Notes under the pieces: generated by a model
What the model saw: the letters and a program-made list of their open reading frames with translations, nothing else
Databases searched by the model: none
Told to the model about the DNA's origin: nothing
Position numbers and translations under genes: made by a program
Assembly (NCBI RefSeq): GCF_001434115.1
Contig: NZ_AZDW01000034.1
Location: 104,231-168,230 of the forward strand
Origin: Levilactobacillus zymae DSM 19395
Lineage (GTDB): Bacteria; Bacillota; Bacilli; Lactobacillales; Lactobacillaceae
DNA length: 64,000 nt
Reading direction: 5' to 3'
Part shown: positions 31,565-45,355 of the stretch, in pieces
How positions within the stretch are numbered: the stretch's first letter is position 1
Layout: every line of letters begins with the position of its first letter

Positions 31565-31592
31565 TTGACAATTCGTTAAAAACTCCTAAAAT
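31565..31592 (+). promoter_or_regulatory. Promoter of the T-box/oppA operon
   Basis: TTGACA (31565-31570), 16-bp spacer, TAAAAT (31587-31592). Confidence 0.75.
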
Positions 31593-31598
31593 GAATTT

Positions 31599-31873
31599 TA
31601 AATTAGAAATGCAACGAGTAGTCAAAGTAAATTCTAACCTTAAGAGATCACCCGCACGGCTGAAAGGGTGAAACCAGAATTGAAACACAGCTACCAGCAG
31701 TCAGTCTGAACGGGTCACGCTTAGTAGGATTGAACGGACCTCGCCGTTAACCGGGGGGAGTTTTTTTGAAAACTCACTGAGGTAATGGCTGTGAGGCCAT
31801 TACGAAGTTAGAGGTGGAACCACGCTATTGAGTCGTCCTCGCAAAGATTAACGTCTTTGCGGGGACTTTTTTT
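31599..31873 (+). promoter_or_regulatory. T-box riboswitch, histidine (CAC) specifier
   Basis: T-box leaders bind a specific uncharged tRNA and switch from terminator to antiterminator. Here AGTA (31626-31629) and GAA (31682-31684) form the specifier-loop motif, and the triplet in the specifier place is CAC (31686-31688) followed by A. This is the same GAA-N-codon-A arrangement as in the valS T-box, where the triplet is GTA. The T-box sequence AGGTGGAACCACG is at 31812-31824, and the terminator is GTCCTCGCAAAGA/TCTTTGCGGGGAC plus seven T residues (to 31873). CAC indicates tRNA-His. Together with the thiI terminator, this accounts for the gap 31419-31896. Confidence 0.85.
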
Positions 31874-31896
31874 ATGAAAGAAAGGATGATGACTAG

Positions 31897-31986
31897 ATGT
31901 TTCAATTGATGATGTTTAATTTAATCGCGACCCTTGCTGAGCAAAAGCGACATCATCGGCATACGGTCCATAGTCTGCACCGGTAA
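31897..31986 (+). CDS. Short histidine-rich reading frame (candidate leader peptide)
   Basis: A 29-codon frame from ATG 31897 to TAA 31984-31986, beginning 24 bp after the T-box terminator. AAAGGA at 31881-31886 is 10 bp upstream, a plausible ribosome site. The first 14 residues are hydrophobic (MFQLMMFNLIATLA); the end is basic and histidine-rich, with His at 19, 20, 22, 25 and 28 (five in the last eleven residues). A hairpin with arms TGAC (32005-32008) and GTCA (32025-32028) lies just before the oppA ribosome site. Histidine enrichment under a histidine T-box suggests a translation-sensing leader, but a small functional peptide is also possible. I recognise no family. Confidence 0.6.
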   Translation: MFQLMMFNLIATLAEQKRHHRHTVHSLHR

Positions 31987-32045
31987 TCGTTGTCAAGACA
32001 GGAGTGACGGTCAGAAGATCGTCGGTCATCAAGGAGGAAAAACCT

Positions 32046-33686
32046 ATGCCAAATCAATTGAAACGTTTTGTCGGAATCAGTGTCGTCTTCGTCAGTGGTC
32101 TCGCGTTAGCGGGCTGTGGGCGAACGGCGGATGCCAGCCCGAAACAGAGTGCCACCATCATGGAACAGGCCGATATCTCATCGTTAGACTCGACCATGAT
32201 CACGGATGTGGGGGCCTTAGAAACCATTAACAACGCCGAAGAGGGCCTGTACCGGATGAAAAACAGCACCACGGTCGAACCGGGATTGGCCACGGCCATC
32301 GTGACCCCCACGGCGAACCAGACCGTCTACACCTTCCACCTGCGCAAGGGCCTGAAATGGAGCAACGGGGACGCGTTAACGGCCAACGACTTCGTCTATA
32401 CCTGGCGCCGGGCGGTCACGCCGAGCACCAAGGCGGCCCACGCCTACCAGTTCTTACCGATTAAGAATGCCAAGGCCATTGAAAACGGAAAGCTATCCGC
32501 TAAGAAATTAGGGGTCCAAGCCGTTAACGCGACGACGTTAAAGGTGACCCTCACGGCGCCGACCCCGTACTTCAAGTACCTGGTCGCCTCCGCGCCGTTT
32601 CTCCCGTTGAATCCCAAAGCCGTGGCTAAATACGGCCAGGGCTACGGGACCTCAGCGCAGAAAACGGTCTATGACGGGCCGTTTACCGTTCAGAATTGGA
32701 CGGCCTCGTCGACGAGTTGGACGTTGAAGAAGAACCCGAACTATTGGGACCAGCGGCACGTGAAGTTAGCCACCGTCAAATTTCAGGTGGCCAAGTCGCC
32801 ACAGACGGCCCTGTCGTTATACCAATCTAAGAAACTCGACAACATCGTTTTATCCGGTCAACAGGCCGCCCAGGAAAAGACCAACCCCGGTTATTTGACC
32901 TATCCCAGTGGGGAGACCGACTATCTGGCCTACAACTTTAATCACAAGGCCATGCGCAACCGGAACATTCGCCGCGCCATTTCGTTGGCCATCGACCGGC
33001 AAAGCCTGGTGGACGACGTGTTGAAGAACGGCGCCAAGGTCCCCACGGGCATGGCCCCGGCCGATATCGCCAAGAACCCCAAGACCGGCCGCGACTTTAC
33101 GCAGGACGCTAAGGTGGCCAGTGCCGTGGCGTACAATCCCAAGTTAGCTAAGCGTTATTGGGCCAAGGGCTTACGGCAGCTAGGGGTAAAACGCCTGACG
33201 CTAAACTTAGTCTGTTACGACGTGGACACCTTTAAGAACGCCGCCGAATACGTGCAGGCCAACACGGAGAAGTATCTGAAGGGCCTCAGCTTAAAGGTCA
33301 ACGTTCAGCCCAAGGTCCAAGCCATCACCACCATGCAGAAGAAGCAGGGCTACGACATTGGCTTTTCCAACTGGATCTCGTCTTATCCGGAACTCAACGA
33401 ATTCTTCCAGTTGCTGAATACCGGAAATTACAACAACGCCGGCAGCTATTCCAACGCCGCCTTCGACCGGGTTTACACCCGCGCCAACGGAACGGACGCC
33501 GGCAACGCGACGCAACGCTATGCCGACTTTAAACAAGCCAACCAGATTGCCATGACCGATCAAGCCGTGGCGGTTCTGAATCAGGGCCAAATCGCGCGGC
33601 TCAACAATCCACAACTCAAGGGGGTGGCCTACGCGGCGGCCCAGGGCATCTCGTTAAAGACGGCTTACAAGACCAGTCAGAAATAG
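32046..33686 (+). CDS. Peptide ABC transporter substrate-binding lipoprotein (OppA family)
   Basis: A family-5 extracellular solute-binding protein of 546 residues. The signal peptide ends in lipobox LALAGC (Cys at about residue 23), so it is anchored to the outer face of the membrane. Family features include TYTFHLRKGLKWSNGDALTANDFVYTW-type sequence near residues 95-120. ATG 32046 has AAGGAGG 9 bp upstream. No permease or ATPase genes are adjacent, so it must share a transporter encoded elsewhere. It is controlled by the histidine-type T-box and followed 11 bp later by an M20 hydrolase, suggesting capture of histidine-yielding peptides. Confidence 0.92.
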   Translation: MPNQLKRFVGISVVFVSGLALAGCGRTADASPKQSATIMEQADISSLDSTMITDVGALETINNAEEGLYRMKNSTTVEPGLATAIVTPTANQTVYTFHLRKGLKWSNGDALTANDFVYTWRRAVTPSTKAAHAYQFLPIKNAKAIENGKLSAKKLGVQAVNATTLKVTLTAPTPYFKYLVASAPFLPLNPKAVAKYGQGYGTSAQKTVYDGPFTVQNWTASSTSWTLKKNPNYWDQRHVKLATVKFQVAKSPQTALSLYQSKKLDNIVLSGQQAAQEKTNPGYLTYPSGETDYLAYNFNHKAMRNRNIRRAISLAIDRQSLVDDVLKNGAKVPTGMAPADIAKNPKTGRDFTQDAKVASAVAYNPKLAKRYWAKGLRQLGVKRLTLNLVCYDVDTFKNAAEYVQANTEKYLKGLSLKVNVQPKVQAITTMQKKQGYDIGFSNWISSYPELNEFFQLLNTGNYNNAGSYSNAAFDRVYTRANGTDAGNATQRYADFKQANQIAMTDQAVAVLNQGQIARLNNPQLKGVAYAAAQGISLKTAYKTSQK

Positions 33687-33697
33687 GAGGGATTTAG

Positions 33698-34822
33698 ATG
33701 ATTCAGCCAATTACAGTGAACGACCAACAAATTTATACTGACTTTGACCAATTAGGGGCCCGCGCGGAGGTGGCCTTTCAGGAGGTGCGCACCACGGCCT
33801 ACCTGGCCCAACGCTTAGACGAGCTAGGCGTCTCCTATCAACGCTTTCCCCAGATGACGGGGTTGATTGCGACCTTGAATCCGGGCCAACCGGTGACCAT
33901 CGGGTTACGGACGGATATCGACGCCCTCAAGCAGGTCTATCAGGGCAAGACCCAAGTCCTCCACTCCTGTGGGCACAACGCCCACATGGCCATCGTGCTG
34001 GCGGTCGTAACCTACTTTGCGGCCCACCCGGACGACCTGCCGGGGACGTTAAAGGTGATCTTCCAACCCGCCGAGGAGACCGTGACCGGAGCGGAAAAGG
34101 TGATTCAAAGCGGGTTACTCGGTCCGCTTGACGTTTTATACGGGCTGCACGTGTGCCCAGACAGTGAGGTGGGCGACCACCAGGCCGAGGCCATCTTACC
34201 CGACATCGCCACGCGGACCTACTGGGTGACCATCACCGGTAAGACGGCCCACGCCGGGCGGCCCTGGTTGGGGGCCAACGTGATCGACGCGTTTAGCACC
34301 CTTAACGAACGGTTCAAACAAATCAAACTAGCGACCGATTCGCCGTATTCGGTGACCACCACCATGTTTCAGGCCGGTGAGTCCTCCAACATCGTGCCGG
34401 ACAAAGGGACCTTTGCCGTGGATTTGCGAGCTCGAACCAATGACCTGATGGACCAACTGCAAGACCAGGCCTTTCAAGCGATGCGCGCGGTCTCGACCGG
34501 CGACATTCAGGTGACCCTCGACGGTAATGACCTATCGCCGGCCGCGATTCCCGACGACCAAGCCATCGCGACCATGGGTCAGGCCATCACGGCGGTCTTG
34601 GGGACCGACGGGTTGGTCGCGCCGGTACCCACGCAGGGGGGCGACGACTTTCACTTTTACGCCTACGACGGACTGGCCAAGCGCAGCACCATGCTGGGCC
34701 TGGGTTGCGGCTTAACGCCGGGCTTACACGTCCCGGGAATGACGTTTGACCACACCGCCATGCTGAGCGGGGCGAAAATCCTGATCAACGCCGTGCGGTT
34801 GACCCCGACCACACTGGCTTAA
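33698..34822 (+). CDS. M20 family amidohydrolase/peptidase
   Basis: A 374-residue cytoplasmic metallohydrolase of the M20 aminoacylase/hippurate hydrolase group. The metal site includes RTDIDAL near residue 70, HSCGHNAHMA near 88 with the metal-bridging cysteine, and QPAEETVTGAEKVI near 124; the dimerisation domain begins near 175. Members release amino acids from N-acyl amino acids or small peptides, and the exact substrate is not visible. It is the second structural gene of the T-box operon after oppA, so a role in freeing histidine from an imported conjugate or peptide is a plausible inference. The inverted repeat TGACCCC/GGGGTCA spans its stop but lacks a T-run. Confidence 0.88.
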   Translation: MIQPITVNDQQIYTDFDQLGARAEVAFQEVRTTAYLAQRLDELGVSYQRFPQMTGLIATLNPGQPVTIGLRTDIDALKQVYQGKTQVLHSCGHNAHMAIVLAVVTYFAAHPDDLPGTLKVIFQPAEETVTGAEKVIQSGLLGPLDVLYGLHVCPDSEVGDHQAEAILPDIATRTYWVTITGKTAHAGRPWLGANVIDAFSTLNERFKQIKLATDSPYSVTTTMFQAGESSNIVPDKGTFAVDLRARTNDLMDQLQDQAFQAMRAVSTGDIQVTLDGNDLSPAAIPDDQAIATMGQAITAVLGTDGLVAPVPTQGGDDFHFYAYDGLAKRSTMLGLGCGLTPGLHVPGMTFDHTAMLSGAKILINAVRLTPTTLA

Positions 34823-35483: not shown

Positions 35484-35723
35484 TAACTAGCGATGAGCAA
35501 GAGAGTAACGGTGACCACTTGAGGCAGAGAATCACGGGTGCTGGAACGTGGTGAAGGGGTCACCGGGAAAGTAACTTGTGAGCTGATCGACTGAACGAAT
35601 AAGTAGGTCGGTACCGGAGCACACTCCGTTAACAACGAAGATAAGTGGGGTTTAAACGCCCAATTTAGGTGGTACCGCGAAGGAAGCTTCGTCCTAATGT
35701 GAGATTAGGACGAAGCTTTTTTT
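35484..35723 (+). promoter_or_regulatory. T-box riboswitch, valine (GTA) specifier
   Basis: Leader of valS. The specifier-loop motif is AGTA with GAA, and the specifier triplet GTA is at 35571-35573, reading valine as expected for valS. The T-box sequence AGGTGGTACCGCG is at 35667-35679; its TGGT matches the A73 discriminator expected for tRNA-Val. The terminator AAGCTTCGTCCTAAT/ATTAGGACGAAGCTT (35684-35718) with T-run completes it. This element serves as internal calibration for the two histidine T-boxes. Confidence 0.95.
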
Positions 35724-44309: not shown

Positions 44310-44572
44310 AATGAAACAAAACGTTGAGCAGAAGAGTAGCGCAGCAGTGAGACAACAGAAAGCCCGGATGATGGAAACGGGTGTCGCTGGTGACGTGAAG
44401 CACATCTGTGAGTTGGTCGTCTGAAGATTGAGTAGGATGATTCGGGTTAGCCCGTTATCGCTGGAGTTGCTTGCAACTCACTGAGGTTGGTTTAGTGATA
44501 GACCAACGAACAGGGGTGGAACCACGATGTGATCGTCCTCTTAGGCCTACGGGTCTAGGAGGGCGTTTTTTA
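44310..44572 (+). promoter_or_regulatory. T-box riboswitch, histidine (CAC) specifier
   Basis: A full T-box. The specifier loop carries AGTA (5' side, AGAGTAGCG) and GAA; the triplet in the calibrated GAA-N-codon-A position is CAC at 44401-44403. The T-box sequence GGGTGGAACCACG ends at 44525. The terminator (CGTCCTC-TAG-CC/GG-CTA-GAGGGCG plus six T) ends near 44572. It resembles the oppA T-box in its 3' module (AACTCACTGAGG, GGTGGAACCACG, CGTCCTC). Confidence 0.85.
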
Positions 44573-44693
44573 TTTCAGGGGTTCTAACGGTGCGAGCAAC
44601 TCCCTGAGTCGGCGTGGCGTGAGCCCGTCGAAAATTGAGGTGGCACCGCGGTCAAACGTCCTCTTGGATTAAGTTCCAAGTGGGCGTTTTTTA
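44573..44693 (+). promoter_or_regulatory. Second, partial T-box module without stem I
   Basis: A duplicated 3' half of the preceding T-box. GCAACTC-CTGAG, CC-CGAA, GGTGGCACCGCG (AGGTGGCACCGCGG at 44638-44651) and CGTCCTCTT recur in the same order. It ends in its own terminator, CGTCC-TCTTGGA/TTCCAAG-GGGCG with T-run (44657-44692). There is no room for stem I or a specifier. The two modules, the minD terminator and the promoter account for the gap 44176-44713. Confidence 0.8.
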
Positions 44694-44713
44694 GTTGAGA
44701 AGGAGGAATTGGT

Positions 44714-45355
44714 ATGCACTACGTTAGCGAAATTTTACCCTCACTGATTTCCGGAACCGGAATGACGTTATCGATTTTCTTTTGGACCATTATTATTTCC
44801 ATTCCCTTAGGGATTCTGGTGGGCCTGGGCATGTTGACCAAGTTTAAGCCCTTAACCTGGGTGATCAACATTTACGTGTGGTTGATGCGGGGAACCCCAT
44901 TGTTACTGCAATTAATTTTTGTTTTTTACGGGTTACCGATTATTGGGGTGGTCTTTCCCCGTTACGAGGCGGCGCTGTTCGCCTTTATCTTGAACTACAC
45001 GGCCTACTTCGCCGAAATCTTCCGGGGTGGACTCCAGGCCATTCCCGTGGGGCAGTACGAAAGTGCTCGGGTTCTGCGGTTGACCAACTGGCAGACCTTA
45101 CGCAAGATCGTGATTCCCCAAGTGGTCAAGATCGTGTTACCGTCAATCGGGAACGAAGTCATCAACCTGGTCAAGGATTCCTCGTTGGTGTACGTGATCG
45201 GGTTGGGCGATCTGCTGCGGGCCGGTAACGTGGCCATGGCGCGCGACGTTACGCTGTTACCGATGGTCCTAGTCGCCGTCATCTACTTACTACTGACGGC
45301 GGTTTGCACGTTGGTTCTGCGACGGTTGGAAAAGCACTACAGCTATTGGCGTTAG
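44714..45355 (+). CDS. Polar amino acid ABC transporter permease (probably histidine)
   Basis: A 213-residue HisM/GlnP-type permease with about five membrane helices. The EAA loop that contacts the ATPase is visible as SARVLRLTNWQTLRKIVIPQ near residue 117. AAGGAGG lies 9 bp before the ATG. It is the first gene of a permease-ATPase-binding protein operon. The histidine-type T-box upstream indicates histidine as substrate; sequence alone gives only polar amino acids. A single permease gene implies a homodimeric channel. Confidence 0.92.
   Translation: MHYVSEILPSLISGTGMTLSIFFWTIIISIPLGILVGLGMLTKFKPLTWVINIYVWLMRGTPLLLQLIFVFYGLPIIGVVFPRYEAALFAFILNYTAYFAEIFRGGLQAIPVGQYESARVLRLTNWQTLRKIVIPQVVKIVLPSIGNEVINLVKDSSLVYVIGLGDLLRAGNVAMARDVTLLPMVLVAVIYLLLTAVCTLVLRRLEKHYSYWR

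Follow-up and report, generated by a model that had tools for sequence, protein, structure and literature searches.

A putative translational histidine attenuator stacked behind a histidine T-box upstream of oppA in Levilactobacillus and Secundilactobacillus

In erm leader peptides, ribosome stalling within the leader frame exposes the start of the gene behind it, and at rtpA of Bacillus, where the leader stop lies near the next Shine-Dalgarno (SD) sequence, a ribosome terminating at that stop blocks the SD. According to the summary in PMC11255114 (citing Chen and Yanofsky 2003, 2004), B. subtilis rtpA is preceded by a tryptophan T-box and then by a leader peptide at which ribosome stalling is tRNA-dependent. 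As far as the openly licensed literature shows, this combination of a T-box with a leader peptide for the same tRNA has previously been described for tryptophan at Bacillus rtpA only. Histidine leader peptides in Firmicutes have been reported only where HisR and histidine T-boxes are absent (PMC9413887); an oppA-M20 operon is absent from the histidine T-box targets listed in that work, and oppA goes unmentioned in PMC2494555.

Here we describe a locus of Levilactobacillus zymae DSM 19395 at which a histidine-type T-box is followed by a short histidine-rich frame and then by oppA. From conservation and RNA modelling, we consider it likely that this frame acts as a translational histidine attenuator stacked behind the transcriptional histidine T-box. 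The features of the locus, within the 64,000-nucleotide stretch of DNA that was analysed (hereafter the window), are as follows.

31565-31592, + strand: probable sigma-70-type promoter (TTGACA, 16 nt, TAAAAT), read by eye from the sequence.
31605-31843, + strand: T-box leader RF00230, histidine type, transcriptional (Rfam 92.5 bits, E 5.9e-21).
31686-31688, + strand: T-box specifier triplet CAC (His), placed by its position relative to GAA+1.
31837-31873, + strand: T-box terminator hairpin CCTCGCAAAG / CTTTGCGGGG plus U run (sequence).
31881-31886, + strand: leader peptide ribosome site AAAGGA (sequence, orthologs).
31897-31986, + strand: 29-codon histidine-rich leader frame (in-frame conservation in Levilactobacillus and Secundilactobacillus).
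31908-31916, + strand: helix P1 5' strand GATGATGTT, codons 4-7 (partner 31949-31957).
31949-31957, + strand: helix P1 3' strand GACATCATC, codons 18-21 (alignment pairing in 9 orthologs).
31951-31980, + strand: His codon cluster, codons 19-28 (ribosome footprint scan).
31958-31967, + strand: helix P2 5' strand GGCATA-C-GGT, which includes the His22 CAT (folding, ortholog alignment).
32031-32037, + strand: oppA Shine-Dalgarno AAGGAGG (sequence).
32042-32050, + strand: helix P2 3' strand ACCTATGCC, which includes the oppA start codon (folding, alignment).
32046-33686, + strand: oppA, lipoprotein solute-binding protein of family 5 (SBP_bac_5), 546 aa (Pfam PF00496, E 8.5e-74).
33698-34822, + strand: M20 family amidohydrolase (TIGR01891, 219 bits, above cut-off; PF01546).

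The T-box score lies 0.5 bits below the gathering score of 93, with the covariance model matching the full element, and orthologous T-boxes at four Secundilactobacillus loci score 95.5-103.6 bits, above the gathering score. The specifier CAC is in register with the GUA of the valS T-box (35484-35699) and with the CAC of the hisYZX-type transporter T-box (44315-44543), both in the same window, and by this position it appears to match the regulated pathway. The M20 amidohydrolase gene probably belongs to the same operon as oppA (an M20-type frame also lies downstream of oppA at the Secundilactobacillus loci), and uptake of histidine-yielding peptides is a reasonable reading of what the operon does; in the plasmid collection, the oppA search found distant genes only. 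Among the 27 T-box loci evaluated in the genome, the oppA locus alone has a clear leader frame matched to the amino acid, no comparable frame being present behind the T-boxes of the HisRS-like gene or the His-type transporter; T-box and gene stand 233 nt apart here, where the separation elsewhere is mostly 60-160 nt.

Past the terminator of the hisYZX-type transporter T-box (Rfam 107.6 bits, CAC at the specifier position), and within 44315-44714, lies another antiterminator/terminator unit that has a T-box sequence of its own, GAGGTGGCACCGCGG, and apparently lacks Stem I; this second T-box-like unit was not reported by Rfam, and G011 and G023 (L005, L006) have the double arrangement too. Upstream of oppA in Lentilactobacillus G301 (L112), two tandem T-boxes precede both a frame of 12 codons, MRSSNRHLNPLT, and a 9-bp hairpin with perfect pairing (CCCTCTTAC/GTAAGAGGG), possibly another leader arrangement. 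In the genome to which the window belongs, two T-boxes lie more than 300 nt upstream of MetE-like genes (L157 and L168), and the spacers between them and the MetE-like genes contain no short frame with a ribosome site.

The leader frame runs from ATG through 29 amino acids (MFQLMMFNLIATLAEQKRHHRHTVHSLHR) to TAA, with histidines at positions 19, 20, 22, 25 and 28; it starts 23 nt past the T-box terminator U run and stops 59 nt before oppA. When both strands of the window were scanned, giving 851 frames of 15-60 aa, it alone had at least five His in any 11 residues. A reading made from the letters of the window before our analysis (the sequence-only reading) had reported this frame, an AAAGGA 10 nt before its ATG, the five His positions and a controlling T-box with specifier CAC, and all of these were confirmed, the last by the RF00230 match at 31605-31843 and the triplet at 31686-31688. 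It had further proposed to align the T-box to oppA interval across Lactobacillaceae as a check for a leader peptide, and among the orthologs the start, frame and His codons are kept while neighbouring bases drift.

Using OppA orthologs gathered from species genomes, we found orthologous frames, 29 or 34 codons long, that begin alike and have a ribosome site, between a His-type T-box and oppA at four Levilactobacillus loci (the window, G035, L. acidifarinae and L. suantsaii) and five Secundilactobacillus loci (S. collinoides, S. odoratitofui, S. silagincola, S. angelensis and S. yichangensis). The upstream ribosome site is a purine-rich box containing AGG in all orthologs. Residues M1, F2, Q3, M5, M6, H19 and H22 are invariant (an MFQ-MM start), residues 7-17 drift, in-frame length differences are whole codons, and the stop-to-ATG spacer is 27-72 nt in the nine close orthologs. 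The short frames carry four to six His codons and are rich in the cognate codon; a drifting middle beside a persisting ribosome site, start and His codons is what would be expected of a leader peptide. These His codons are CAT in 37 cases and CAC in 12, against 83 and 307 in the long frames of the window, and the His22 codon is CAT in 9 of 9 orthologs. Codon 18 (31948-31950), directly before His19-His20, is the rare Arg codon CGA (56 of 856 Arg codons in the long frames of the window), which is kept in six of nine orthologs and may slow the ribosome or have a role in helix P1.

A profile of the peptide, run against 398 Lactobacillaceae genomes, matched at the oppA locus alone; weak matches in other genera (L121-L125, L128 and L133) and within the genus (L092) lay antisense to or out of frame of unrelated genes and were discarded. 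S. folii has a rearranged, longer and otherwise different frame with the C-terminal end HQVHSLHHRF. S. similis (L035, 2453-5244) keeps the His segment in a shifted reading frame; the case says little, because frameshifts in that assembly interrupt oppA and the M20 gene behind it as well, from either decay of the locus or homopolymer errors in assembly. Lentilactobacillus relatives keep the T-box and oppA and lack the leader frame, and one fully supported branch of the OppA tree separates the rows that bear the leader from those of Lentilactobacillus.

Folding of the interval pairs the His-codon segment 31958-31967 with 32042-32050, which includes the oppA start codon, and the His22 CAU is predicted to pair with the oppA AUG itself; in the window, this helix P2 extends over the AUG and the four preceding positions (-1 to -4), with the SD left uncovered. 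The P2 strands are TGCATATG and CATATGCA in Secundilactobacillus, and TGCATTTGCG and CGCATATGCA in S. silagincola and S. angelensis. Helix P1 adjoins P2 and lies within the frame, joining codons 4-7 (GATGATGT) to codons 18-21 (ACATCATC). Across the alignment of nine orthologs, 89.5% of P1/P2 cells are paired, compared with 20-52% in slid versions; most P1/P2 pairs are invariant. A single pair differs on both sides (G-C to U-A), and covariation is thin because the two strands scarcely vary. The S. folii counterparts are CCCC and AGGTCCA, located ahead of and within the His region, which pair with GGGG of the SD and with TGGACTT. Swapping leaders and oppA starts between species gave -11.3 on average against -15.1 for native combinations, a mild support only because several swaps pair better than native.

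A further candidate helix, P0, between 31897-31910 and 32053-32066, is strong in both the window and G035 but does not hold its position in Secundilactobacillus; on average it was only slightly better in native (-11.3) than in swapped combinations (-10.1), and we make no claim for it. The small hairpin at 32005-32028 that the sequence-only reading placed before the oppA ribosome site does form in the minimum-energy fold of the window, but it is not a conserved regulatory element, because the spacer of 27-72 nt leaves no room for it in three orthologs.

Translation of the frame was modelled with the ribosome as a 28-nt unpairable stretch, stepped codon by codon, and each step yielded an opening energy for the oppA start region (-14 to +6). 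In the model, the oppA start is closed with no ribosome, with a ribosome mid-frame and with a ribosome at the stop codon, and open with the P site at about codons 17-26, where the A site is at or close to a His codon. Opening energy ran 10, 4, 10 in S. odoratitofui and 10, 2, 10 in S. folii, which opens at codons 26-37, holding or adjoining its own His codons (31-38); opening at His codons recurs there with peptide, paired sequences and target (the SD, not the AUG) all different.

Summed over ten orthologs, the contrast reached 32.0 kcal/mol, whereas dinucleotide-shuffled intervals gave -2.2 +/- 3.8 and at most 4.6; the sum does not represent ten independent tests because the orthologs share ancestry, with about six effective independent lineages. 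Synonymous recodings of the same peptide in eight orthologs gave 6.1 +/- 4.1 (maximum 13.8) against 31.1 for the natural sequences, and the base sequence therefore carries more than the peptide requires. The contrast is insensitive to the exact footprint; the observed value was reached by 1 of 300 shuffles for the window alone and by 1 of 200 for S. odoratitofui, and the sum for the His positions (17.7) was matched by 0 of 5000 circular shifts of the His labels. The modelled gain in the window is modest (about 3 kcal/mol), and a convincing contrast is absent in two of the ten orthologs modelled, G035 (L002, D 0.5) and S. yichangensis (L014, D 0.4). Lentilactobacillus starts without a leader had opening energies of 3.4-5.4, compared with 4.6-10.1 for those with one, an unfair comparison because the RNA compared is shorter in the former. 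By computation, the His-codon strand masks the oppA start in 8 of the 10 modelled orthologs; together with the conservation of the frame, this argues for the second, translation-level histidine sensor behind the T-box that the sequence-only reading had suggested.

In the stacked arrangement that we consider likely, charged tRNA-His would lead the T-box to end transcription in most cases; on the remaining, read-through transcripts, the ribosome would traverse the frame and depart, with P1 and P2 closing over the oppA start. With histidine short, uncharged tRNA-His would cause T-box readthrough, and the leading ribosome would wait at codons 19-28, covering P1 and P2 and freeing the oppA start. 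As serial sensors, the T-box and the leader peptide would push oppA the same way, upwards under histidine shortage; together they could make the OFF state tighter and the response steeper for the uptake of peptides that probably yield histidine. On balance, we also lean towards the view that a gene under T-box control acquired, in one lineage, a self-masking sensor: the strand covering the next start would consist of the histidine-reading codons themselves, CAU on AUG, and one tRNA would be read twice, at transcription and at translation. If true, this would explain the short frame skipped by annotation, and Lentilactobacillus, with the T-box and oppA and without the leader, would offer a natural comparison for what the second sensor adds.

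The alternative that survives best, although we regard it as unlikely, is plain translational coupling, in which any translation of the frame opens the oppA start with no histidine-specific response and the His codons matter only via CAU-AUG pairing. The pairing between frame and oppA start would be identical, and passing ribosomes would open the start briefly too. However, the open stretch falls on the His codons, including those of S. folii, where the SD is the target and there is no CAU-AUG constraint; orthologs retain or have gained His codons beyond the P2 core (25, 28 and 29); the modelled start recloses when the ribosome reaches the stop; and the upstream T-box is His-specific.

It is far less probable that RNA structure is all that matters, with the conserved bases serving P1 and P2 and the frame untranslated or due to chance: the P1 and P2 strands are strongly conserved at the nucleotide level, but the length changes are in-frame, the ribosome site and start are conserved, S. 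folii keeps a His-rich frame despite its different sequence, and no other of the 851 short frames of the window resembles it in His content. We give equally little credence to a small secreted or membrane peptide. Its own ribosome site and a hydrophobic stretch would fit such a product, and the hydrophobic first half pointed out by the sequence-only reading is present in the window copy; yet residues 7-17 are unconserved and the hydrophobicity is lost in orthologs (e.g., DNTNTAGIK and RHSTNTVTEL), the peptide has no family match, and constraint at synonymous positions serves RNA pairing. Arrest by a His-rich nascent chain or by metal binding, and not by the charging of tRNA-His, would halt the ribosome and open oppA in a manner suited to the His-rich end and to a family 5 of solute-binding proteins that includes nickel binders (weak NikA matches), but it is just as improbable, as His spacing and flanking residues vary, the transcript already has a His T-box, and oppA is followed by an amidohydrolase and not by metal transport parts.

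The proposed attenuator behind the T-box shares its histidine logic, stalling at His codons of a short frame, with the his attenuators of enterobacteria (RF00514) and those of the B. cereus group, Peptostreptococcaceae and Erysipelotrichales (PMC9413887). The sequence-only reading drew its comparison with the enterobacterial systems; those his leader peptides, however, act on a transcription terminator, and the RF00514 covariance model has no match in the window at the gathering score or at E 1. A closer precedent is rtpA, with its T-box and leader peptide. The first sensor belongs with the His T-boxes of Lactobacillales (his operon, hisYZX; PMC9413887), although here, unlike in those listed, a second sensor follows.

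Like rtpLP-rtpA (anti-TRAP, yczA), as outlined in PMC11255114, the locus would sense the same uncharged tRNA twice, with the T-box first and leader-peptide stalling second; judged from the specifier CAC and the His codons, both sensors appear to read the same tRNA. The amino acid is histidine here and tryptophan there, the peptide here is longer, and the target here is a peptide-binding protein with an amidohydrolase, whereas the rtpA target is a regulator. A terminating ribosome cannot block the SD in the manner of rtpA, because the stop lies well before the gene (59 nt from the ATG in the window and 27-72 nt in the nine close orthologs); here the His-codon strand itself pairs with the gene start. 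If true, the arrangement would have evolved again with a different mechanism, this time for histidine and in front of a lactobacillar uptake operon. As in the erm translational attenuators, a stalled ribosome would free the start of the next gene, the signal being an antibiotic there and amino-acid supply here.
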